A stretch of DNA of 62,425 bases from an uncultured Chitinophagaceae bacterium (GTDB taxonomy: Bacteria > Bacteroidota > Bacteroidia > Chitinophagales > Chitinophagaceae), in contig CAIVCF010000207.1 in the NCBI GenBank assembly GCA_903904335.1, positions 1 to 62,425 of the forward strand, in the 5' to 3' direction. Shown here one piece after another: positions 40,400 to 41,713 of this stretch; the first letter of the stretch is position 1, and each line of letters begins with the position of its first letter. The position numbers and the translations under genes are program-made. The notes beneath the pieces were generated by a model that had not been told where the DNA came from, made no database searches, and saw only the letters and a program-made list of their open reading frames with translations.

Positions 40400-40430
40400 T
40401 TTGCACCAATTCAAATTGATTCTATTTTCG
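40400..40430 (+). promoter_or_regulatory. promoter of the asd leader
   Basis: TTTG (40400-40403), a 19-bp spacer and TATTTTCG (40423-40430) give a good -33/-7 pair. The transcript would begin around 40435-40438, at or just before the leader peptide start. Confidence 0.5.
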
Positions 40431-40449
40431 CAACGCAATGAATAAGTCA

Positions 40450-40503
40450 ATGAAACATACAAAAAACATAAAGAAGATCATCTCAAACGGAGAAGACGCT
40501 TAA
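40450..40503 (+). CDS. asd leader peptide (17 aa; 21 aa if started at 40438)
   Basis: The short frame ends at TAA 40501-40503 and reads MKHTKNIKKIISNGEDA from ATG 40450; an ATG at 40438 adds four residues. It contains Thr, four Lys and three Ile (IKKII), which are products of the aspartate pathway. The end of the frame contains CGGAGAAG, which can pair with the terminator's left arm. This is what a transcription-attenuation leader needs. The preferred start is 40450 because the predicted transcript begins at about 40436. Confidence 0.6.
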   Translation: MKHTKNIKKIISNGEDA

Positions 40504-40565
40504 TGTTTTATGTATAACAACCATAACTAACTGAAGGCCTTCTCCGAAACGAGGAGGCTTTTTTG
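40488..40565 (+). promoter_or_regulatory. attenuator: antiterminator and terminator upstream of asd
   Basis: CGGAGAAG (40488-40495, inside the leader frame) is exactly complementary to CTTCTCCG (40539-40546). The latter also forms the left arm of a terminator: GCCTTCTC (40537-40544) with GAGGAGGC (40551-40558, one G-U), followed by T7. A ribosome finishing the leader would cover 40488-40495 and allow termination. A ribosome stalled earlier would free it to form the antiterminator. Confidence 0.7.
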
Positions 40566-40579
40566 TTGCTTGATGAGAT

Positions 40580-40620
40580 GGAGTACAAGTGTGCGACGCA
40601 ACTTGGCAAAATTGAAACAC
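40580..40620 (+). repeat. dispersed intergenic repeat, copy 5
   Basis: GTACAAGTGTGCGACGCAAC (40583-40602), identical to copy 1, lies between the attenuator and asd. Confidence 0.75.
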
Positions 40621-40667
40621 AAAAGTTTGAAACATAAAAATTATTTCATCATTAAAAACAAAACAAA

Positions 40668-41657
40668 ATGAAAGTGGCCGTAGTTGGAGCTACCGGTTTA
40701 GTTGGCTCAAAAATGTTACAGGTATTGGCAGAAAGAAATTTTCCGGTAACGGAATTAATTCCCGTTGCATCTGAAAGATCAGTGGGTAAGGAAGTAGAAT
40801 TTAAGGGAAAGAAATATAAGGTAGTTGGAATGAAAGATGGCATTGCAGCAAAACCGGCCGTAGCCATATTTTCAGCAGGTGGTGGTACATCGTTGGAATG
40901 GGCACCGCAATTTGCAGCAGCAGGTATTAAAGTGATCGATAATTCTTCTGCATGGAGAATGGATCCAACAAAAAAATTAGTGGTTCCTGAAGTGAATGCT
41001 GATGTATTGACGGCAGACGATTTTATTATTGCCAATCCCAATTGTTCAACTATTCAGATGGTGGTTGCATTGATGCCTTTGCATCTGAAATATAAAATTA
41101 AAAGAGTGGTGGTAAGTACTTATCAAAGTGTTACAGGAACAGGAAAGAAAGCAGTTGATCAATTATTCAATGAAAGAAAGGGGATAGAAGGAGAGATGGC
41201 GTATAAATATCAAATTGATCTGAATGTGATTCCGCAGATTGATGTCTTCTTGGACAATGGTTACACCAAAGAAGAGATTAAAATGGTGAAAGAAACATGC
41301 AAGATCATGAAAGATGATTCCATTCGTGTTACTGCAACAACCGTTCGTATTCCTGTTGTTGGCGGTCACAGCGAAAGTGTGAATGTTGAATTTGAAAATG
41401 AATTTGTCCTGAGCGAAGTGAAGGATCTGCTTAGCAAAGCACCGGGAGTTATCGTGCAGAATGATGATACTTCTCAGTTATATCCGATGCCATTATGGGC
41501 ACACGAAAAAGATGAAGTGTTTGTGGGAAGATTGCGCAGAGATGAAACTCAGGAAAAGACTTTGAACATGTGGATCGTGAGTGATAACCTTCGCAAAGGC
41601 GCTGCTACCAATGCTGTGCAGATAGCAGAATATATGTTGAGCGAAGGATTATTATAA
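40668..41657 (+). CDS. asd: aspartate-semialdehyde dehydrogenase
   Basis: The 329-residue protein opens with the NADP-binding motif KVAVVGATGLVGSKMLQVL. It carries IANPNCSTIQMVVALMPLH with the catalytic Cys and RIPVVGGHSESVNVEFE with the active-site His. It reduces aspartyl phosphate to aspartate semialdehyde, the branch point to Lys, Thr, Met and Ile. It is monocistronic, with an attenuator-like leader upstream and a strong terminator after, consistent with control by an aspartate-family amino acid. Confidence 0.96.
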   Translation: MKVAVVGATGLVGSKMLQVLAERNFPVTELIPVASERSVGKEVEFKGKKYKVVGMKDGIAAKPAVAIFSAGGGTSLEWAPQFAAAGIKVIDNSSAWRMDPTKKLVVPEVNADVLTADDFIIANPNCSTIQMVVALMPLHLKYKIKRVVVSTYQSVTGTGKKAVDQLFNERKGIEGEMAYKYQIDLNVIPQIDVFLDNGYTKEEIKMVKETCKIMKDDSIRVTATTVRIPVVGGHSESVNVEFENEFVLSEVKDLLSKAPGVIVQNDDTSQLYPMPLWAHEKDEVFVGRLRRDETQEKTLNMWIVSDNLRKGAATNAVQIAEYMLSEGLL

Positions 41658-41680: not shown

Positions 41681-41713
41681 AAAGGAGATGAGTACGATCA
41701 TCTCCTTTTTATT
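41681..41713 (+). terminator. asd terminator
   Basis: AAAGGAGATGA (41681-41691) pairs perfectly with TCATCTCCTTT (41698-41708), followed by TTATTT. Confidence 0.9.

Follow-up and report, generated by a model that had tools for sequence, protein, structure and literature searches.

The asd gene of an uncultured Chitinophagaceae bacterium, which encodes aspartate-semialdehyde dehydrogenase, is preceded by a leader element that is very likely a ribosome-mediated transcription attenuator, with lysine as its main signal and threonine and isoleucine as secondary ones. An earlier note on this DNA, made from the letters alone, had read the region as ribosome-mediated attenuation controlling asd, and the analysis described here supports that reading. 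The parts of the element, their conservation among relatives, the alternative pairing of its arms and the bias of its codons were established by reading the sequence and comparing it between genomes. The features of the window, i.e., the whole 62,425-nt stretch of DNA that was analysed, are as follows.

40400-40430, + strand: Bacteroidota-type promoter, read directly from the sequence, with TTTG at 40400-40403, a 19-nt spacer and TATTTTCG at 40423-40430.
40438-40503, + strand: leader open reading frame MNKSMKHTKNIKKIISNGEDA of 21 codons, with Lys, Thr and Ile control codons, from ORF reading.
40457-40473, + strand: region 1, which overlaps the control codons and forms the outer 5′ arm of the 1:2 hairpin, from the minimum-free-energy structure and arm-swap tests.
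40478-40484, + strand: inner 5′ arm of the 1:2 hairpin (TCTC and neighbours), pairing with region 2, from folding.
40488-40495, + strand: region 2, CGGAGAAG, located close to where the leader frame ends; as the antiterminator arm it forms 8 bp with CTTCTCCG of the terminator.
40499-40515, + strand: outer 3′ arm of the 1:2 hairpin, from folding and arm-swap tests.
40533-40564, + strand: intrinsic terminator, consisting of a stem-loop at 40533-40562 (regions 3 and 4) and a T6 run at 40559-40564, from the sequence, with a counterpart in 61 of 85 asd loci.
40668-41657, + strand: asd, intact, 329 amino acids, the controlled gene, identified by TIGR01296 and NF011456.
41681-41708, + strand: terminator-like hairpin directly 3′ of asd, from a terminator scan.

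The asd product scores 420.8 bits against NCBIfam TIGR01296 (asd_B) and 435.4 bits against NF011456, both above cut-off. With a hairpin directly behind it, asd is probably transcribed alone, as a single-gene transcription unit. The gene upstream of the leader encodes a pfkB-family kinase (PF00294).

Attenuators of the class represented by thr, his and trp of Escherichia coli consist of a leader open reading frame, three helices (1:2, 2:3 and 3:4), a stop codon at region 2 and a terminator before the gene. All of these parts are present before asd, as the earlier note had proposed, although it missed the long 1:2 hairpin. There is a short leader frame with codons for end products of the pathway, a protector 1:2 hairpin that overlaps the control codons (found by folding and by arm swaps), an antiterminator helix that excludes the terminator, and an intrinsic terminator that is evident from the sequence between the leader and asd. 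The leader has 21 residues, or 17 if translation begins at a second in-frame ATG at 40450, which agrees with the 17-21 residues with Thr, Lys and Ile codons noted before. The complementarity proposed between the leader end and the left arm of the terminator is likewise present, in the 8 bp listed above. The terminator had been called perfect and followed by T7; the stem GCCTTCTC/GAGGAGGC contains one G-U pair, and the run is of six T residues. Its distance from asd is 103 nt, close to the 100 nt first given. A good promoter does lead into the leader, as had been claimed, but it is of the Bacteroidota consensus type, as given in passages of PMC7366714, and a sigma-70 scan found no promoter at 40400-40430. 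The start of its -7 box lies 15 nt before the leader ATG.

The 135-nt leader RNA folds at z = -4.88, and none of 200 dinucleotide shuffles folds as well. The fold consists of the terminator and of the long 1:2 hairpin, which spans the leader codons and the surroundings of the stop codon; in this minimum-free-energy structure the inner hairpin (arms 40478-40484 and 40490-40496) takes up region 2. Together with the conservation of the element in relatives, the fold indicates more than chance. Between the 1:2 hairpin and the terminator, a CATAAC sequence lies within 40516-40532, and ATATAC or CATAC recurs there in other loci, e.g., L018 and L014. With region 1 covered, this segment might base-pair with GTATG in the 3′ arm of the 1:2 hairpin, and it could serve as an extra switch element.

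The start site, translation of the leader, ribosome stalling and the response in the cell are the parts of the mechanism that we infer. If the -7 box is centred at position -7, as in the promoters described in passages of PMC7366714, RNA polymerase would start some 4 nt upstream of the ATG of the leader, which a ribosome would translate right behind it. Only about 3.7% of Bacteroides 5′-UTRs are shorter than 10 nt according to the same source (PMC7366714), so that a 5′-UTR of about 4 nt would be unusual. When charged tRNA-Lys (or tRNA-Thr or tRNA-Ile) is scarce, the ribosome would stall on the core codons in region 1 and block the 1:2 hairpin, which would leave region 2 (GGAGAAG) to pair with region 3 (CTTCTCC); this pairing would block the terminator, and asd would be transcribed. 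When the amino acids are plentiful, the ribosome would reach the stop codon and cover region 2, regions 3 and 4 would pair and transcription would end. If the leader is not translated, the 1:2 hairpin would take up region 2 and termination would again be favoured.

Conservation was assessed at 85 asd loci, 80 of them named loci and five from the genus, with the window's own locus among the five (loci L003 and L006 are the same contig, taken to be of the Chitinophagaceae). The leader frame, its Lys, Thr and Ile codons and the terminator recur in the expected arrangement upstream of asd at 61 of these loci, which bears out the conservation that the earlier note had named as a check. Cultured relatives with the element include Sediminibacterium ginsengisoli (L018) and Niabella ginsengisoli (L052). 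The 24 loci where no element was called are L013, L029, L033, L035, L040, L041, L044, L050, L066-L068, L071-L080 and L083-L085, and 16 of them are from Mucilaginibacter or Chitinophaga. At L029 and L050 the contig ends close to asd, and at L084 there are only 236 nt upstream. L013 has a gap of 84 nt between a pfkB-like gene and asd, in which a terminator is present and no leader was found; this terminator, 70-47 nt before asd and directly after the pfkB-like gene, resembles that of the element itself. Among the 61 elements, 56 have a -7 box of the form TAnnTT[TC]G 12-18 nt before an ATG, with 15-16 nt in 39 of the 56.

A covariance model, termed R1, was built from 56 of the 61 elements, with the structure assigned by hand from locus L061. 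RNAalifold on a MAFFT alignment was discarded as the source of the structure; it recovered just five terminator pairs, because the arms were shifted between alignment rows. R1 matches 61 of the 70 loci given to it, including the truncated L029. In a family sample of 244 genomes it finds matches in 176 at E ≤ 0.01, the weaker of which include other kinds of leader, and in 150 at E ≤ 3e-6. When the matches at 53 loci were classified, all 38 with E < 3e-6 were found to precede asd (36) or dapA (2). Across the phylum, 15 of 395 sampled genomes have a match at E ≤ 0.001, and 12 of these are within the Chitinophagaceae; the three matches outside the family were rejected as asd leaders, being leaders of the Cys or Cys/Met type. 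The same predicted leader design recurs in most sampled Chitinophagaceae genomes.

Pairing of the arms was assessed by swaps, in which the energy of each arm with its own partner is compared with that obtained with partners from other loci. Over 59 distinct elements, own arms are more stable than swapped arms in all three helices: -11.85 versus -9.74 kcal/mol for 1:2, -13.93 versus -12.01 kcal/mol for 2:3 and -18.46 versus -14.69 kcal/mol for 3:4. For each helix, none of 5000 permutations reaches the observed mean, and none of 10,000 does so with 34 representatives, one per asd cluster under 90% identity. Swaps between nearest relatives point in the same direction but are mixed, with own arms better, worse and equal in 33, 16 and 7 for 1:2, in 24, 13 and 14 of 51 for 2:3 and in 46, 6 and 4 for 3:4. 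The inner hairpin gives 0 of 10,000 permutations over the 59 elements and a weaker result, 59 of 10,000, with the 34 representatives.

Column by column, in a model-fitted alignment that leans towards structure, 15 of the 21 pairs of 1:2 and 3:4 show change on both sides (11.4 in shuffles, 9 of 500 of which reach 15), and their covariation score is 0.279 versus 0.197 in shuffles (0 of 500). The 2:3 helix is weak by this measure, with 0.185 versus 0.159 (3 of 500 shuffles), and sliding by -1 gives 0.210; shifts of register probably explain the weakness. Covariation in both hairpins had been the other check named in the earlier note, and it is present for the helices in the arm-swap tests but weak by column for the antiterminator. 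Individual loci show joint changes. At L025 the terminator stem has GGCCCC and region 2 has GGGGCT, both changed together, and L064, L065 and L069 have CCTTTCC with GGAAAGG where most elements have CCTTCC with GGAAGG.

The geometry of the 2:3 helix also fits that of an attenuator. Of 60 distinct elements, 59 have a helix of 6 bp or more; the sole exception is L082, which was called as an element and has 5 bp. In the 60 elements, the end of the helix lies between -10 and +11 nt from the final base of the stop codon, a placement that would let a ribosome at the stop cover region 2. Constrained folding of 59 elements, which assumes a ribosome footprint of 28 nt and an A site on a core Lys codon, gives a mean probability of the 2:3 helix of 1.00 when the ribosome occupies the best Lys codon and of 0.93 averaged over Lys codons. 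With the ribosome at the stop the probability is 0.00, a value dictated by where the stop codon lies; it is this position relative to region 2 that is the finding. At equilibrium without a ribosome and before region 4 is made, 2:3 wins in 47 of 59 elements (mean probability 0.78); termination without translation would therefore require the 1:2 hairpin to fold earlier. At the stage when region 3 is still missing, more than half of region 2 is paired in 55 of 59 elements, versus 57% with shuffled flanks.

The codons of 59 distinct leaders were compared with composition-matched shuffles. There are 258 Lys codons versus 158 in shuffles (z = 13), 126 Thr codons versus 91 (z = 4.3) and 95 Ile codons versus 77 (z = 2.3), counts that are biased upward as the choice of frame was scored for these three amino acids; His, which was not rewarded, has 68 codons versus 32 (z = 6.9), and its codon CAT sits within a paired arm. 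Lys is found in all 59 leaders, with at least two codons in each, Thr in 57 (absent in two) and Ile in 47 (absent in 12). Both Lys codons are in use, with 153 AAA and 105 AAG. The aligned core, K-H-T-K-x-T/I-K-K, lies within the called leader and in its frame in 59 of 61 elements. Of the 39 replacements counted at core positions 1, 3, 4, 7 and 8, 36 introduce one of the products of the pathway through asd (Lys, Thr, Ile or Met), versus 13 of 48 at control positions 2 and 5 (Fisher p = 3e-10, which is too small as the rows are related); Thr, Ile and Met codons are also among the one-step neighbours of Lys codons. With representatives, before the frame filter, the corresponding counts are 16 of 19 and 4 of 21. 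Sensing of Lys, Ile or Thr had been suggested from the window leader, and the codon evidence agrees and would rank the signals with Lys first, Thr second and Ile third.

An attenuator of the same kind might instead sense Thr and Ile, as in the E. coli thr operon, or the aspartate-family amino acids equally, with the Lys codons a product of A-rich sequence. Such an attenuator is rather unlikely, yet it is the strongest of the alternatives. It gains from the core, where 49 of 61 elements have Thr or Ile at codon 6 and 50 of 61 have Thr at codon 3, and from the pathway itself, in which asd contributes equally to the synthesis of Lys, Thr, Met and Ile. The excess of Lys over shuffles matched in composition argues against it, as does the presence in every leader of Lys alone among the three amino acids. 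A further argument comes from dapA, a gene of the lysine/diaminopimelate branch. The same leader is found before dapA in the window's genome (R1 E = 7.5e-7; the gene was confirmed by TIGR00674), and its peptide, MNSIKKYACKKNIFQREDA, has four Lys and no Thr. Altogether nine dapA leaders from nine genomes, the window's and eight others, comprise eight distinct peptides with four to six Lys each. As dapA belongs to the lysine branch and its leaders are Lys-rich, the strongest candidate for the main signal of the predicted attenuator is Lys. A search of 79 family genomes gave 30 dapA loci, four of which have a called leader, and a further five dapA leaders came via R1 matches; dapA is an occasional member of the leader-controlled set.

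According to a second alternative, which is highly improbable, the hairpin before asd would serve only to end transcription of the pfkB-like gene upstream, and asd would have its own promoter further down. A pfkB-like gene is indeed found upstream on the same strand at 26 of the 61 loci with an element, the window included (at L052 and L082 it is more than 1300 nt from asd), and a weak sigma-70-like match at 40612-40641 might be a promoter of asd itself. However, a conserved promoter, the leader and the 2:3 pairing sit between the upstream gene and the terminator. In addition, no pfkB-like gene is found in the fetched DNA at 35 of the 61 loci, the nearest upstream open reading frame is on the opposite strand at 11 of the 61, and no element was called at L033, L035, L040 and L044, where the gap between the pfkB-like gene and asd is 1-26 nt. 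Least probable of all is a metabolite-binding riboswitch or protein-binding leader for which translation would be irrelevant: the leader RNA is structured, but 59 of the 61 aligned elements preserve its reading frame, and the stop codons, whatever their frame relative to region 2, always lie near that region. In addition, no Rfam family reaches its gathering score in the window, and a search of 117 family genomes gave no lysine riboswitch match.

A search of Rfam over the window found no family at gathering score, including RF01732, RF00168 and RF01692; a permissive search gave Phe_leader (RF01859) at 22.7 of 55 bits and Thr_leader (RF00506) at 15.8 of 55, scores so far below gathering that a shared RNA family is not indicated. 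The lysine riboswitch (L box, RF00168) provides RNA control of lysine-pathway genes in other bacteria. Under the stricter filters of Infernal it was matched in four of 14 control genomes and in none of the 117 family genomes.

Other leaders were found alongside. In the window's genome, a His leader, MKQTTHIHHHHLPIG, and a terminator precede hisG (TIGR00070) at L117, 1501-1640 (G000:C123:20547-20686); L182, L183 and L184 have similar His leaders, and the next gene resembles hisG. Before the bifunctional thrA of the same genome (L137, upstream of 1495), a Thr-rich frame, MKKQQKIPFFLNISTSVFMAVITVTTTTFTL, ending in AVITVTTTTFTL, was read by eye, and no strong terminator was seen by eye behind it. 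Inspection by eye of 420 nt before the other two aspartokinase genes of this genome that pass the cut-off revealed no Lys-rich leader. At L177 (match 1501-1635, - strand) the leader MKNTFTFTCCCCSTRR and a terminator lie about 200 nt before a peroxiredoxin gene (NF009668). Leaders with Cys/Met codons are found at L178 (1501-1651; MKNQKTNITCMCMMKTALSGEG), about 500 nt before a gene for phosphoadenylyl-sulfate reductase (NF002537), and at L179 (1501-1632; MSKKAIQVKTCKGRCI), which also has a SAM riboswitch at 505-613. At L180 (1501-1649) the leader MMKINTEYKRNKRSYLLG and a terminator are followed, at a distance of 36 nt, by a gene for a class I/II aminotransferase (PF00155).

With the thr, his and trp attenuators of E. 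coli the asd element shares control codons, alternative helices, the position of the stop codon and the terminator. It differs from them in that it would control asd and dapA, that its main codon is Lys and that its transcript, from a Bacteroidota promoter, is probably near-leaderless. The Bacteroid-trp RNA motif (RF01692), linked to trp genes as its name indicates, had no match to the window at gathering score. An attenuator-like sequence before asd of Streptococcus mutans was reportedly described by Cardineau and Curtiss in 1987, to judge by the title. In passages of PMC2864571, Bacteroid-trp is listed as a probable cis-regulatory RNA in Bacteroidetes, and the asd RNA motif (RF01732) is from Lactobacillales, with its cis-regulatory role left open. 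The latter is named for asd, like the window gene, but is from another phylum and has no match in the window.

In Sinorhizobium meliloti, according to passages of PMC10117765, the small open reading frame SEP5 lies in the 5′-UTR of a gene called aspartate dehydrogenase, contains six Thr and three Lys codons in one cluster and is proposed as a possible leader peptide. SEP5 differs from the asd leader in being dominated by Thr and conserved in Sinorhizobium alone. Structured 5′ regions before amino-acid operons of Flavobacterium psychrophilum, of the same phylum, are presented in parts of PMC9723704 as clues for leader-peptide attenuation; the conserved elements named there include pheA and hisG, and the term asd has no match in the main text of that paper. 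Leader-peptide attenuation in the phylum is also mentioned in a passage of PMC7366714. In the relevant passage of a 2010 survey, leader peptides were known from Proteobacteria and Actinobacteria only, before its own Firmicutes case (PMC2965389). A literature search at the level of titles and the starts of abstracts, which is weak evidence of absence, yielded neither a lysine leader peptide nor one described for asd in this phylum, and it gave no starvation test of the asd leader. The mechanism is of a classical, long-known type; a description of it for asd or dapA was not found in the literature searched.

In the Chitinophagaceae, leader-peptide attenuation has, on balance, probably taken over the control of lysine. 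A single design, K-H-T-K-x-T/I-K-K, placed before asd and in some genomes before dapA, would respond mainly to lysine and also to other aspartate-family amino acids; it would be translated from a nearly leaderless transcript, too short upstream of the ATG to hold a Shine-Dalgarno site. In well-studied bacteria lysine is sensed by a riboswitch or by proteins. The asd element would extend leader-peptide attenuation to lysine, with dapA joining the same control in some genomes, and if this is true it would be, as far as the literature search shows, the first codon-based lysine attenuator with family-wide evidence. The R1 model finds the element genome by genome, and the element would provide a family-wide, testable case of leader-peptide attenuation in the Bacteroidota, whose transcription and translation signals differ from those of E. 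coli.
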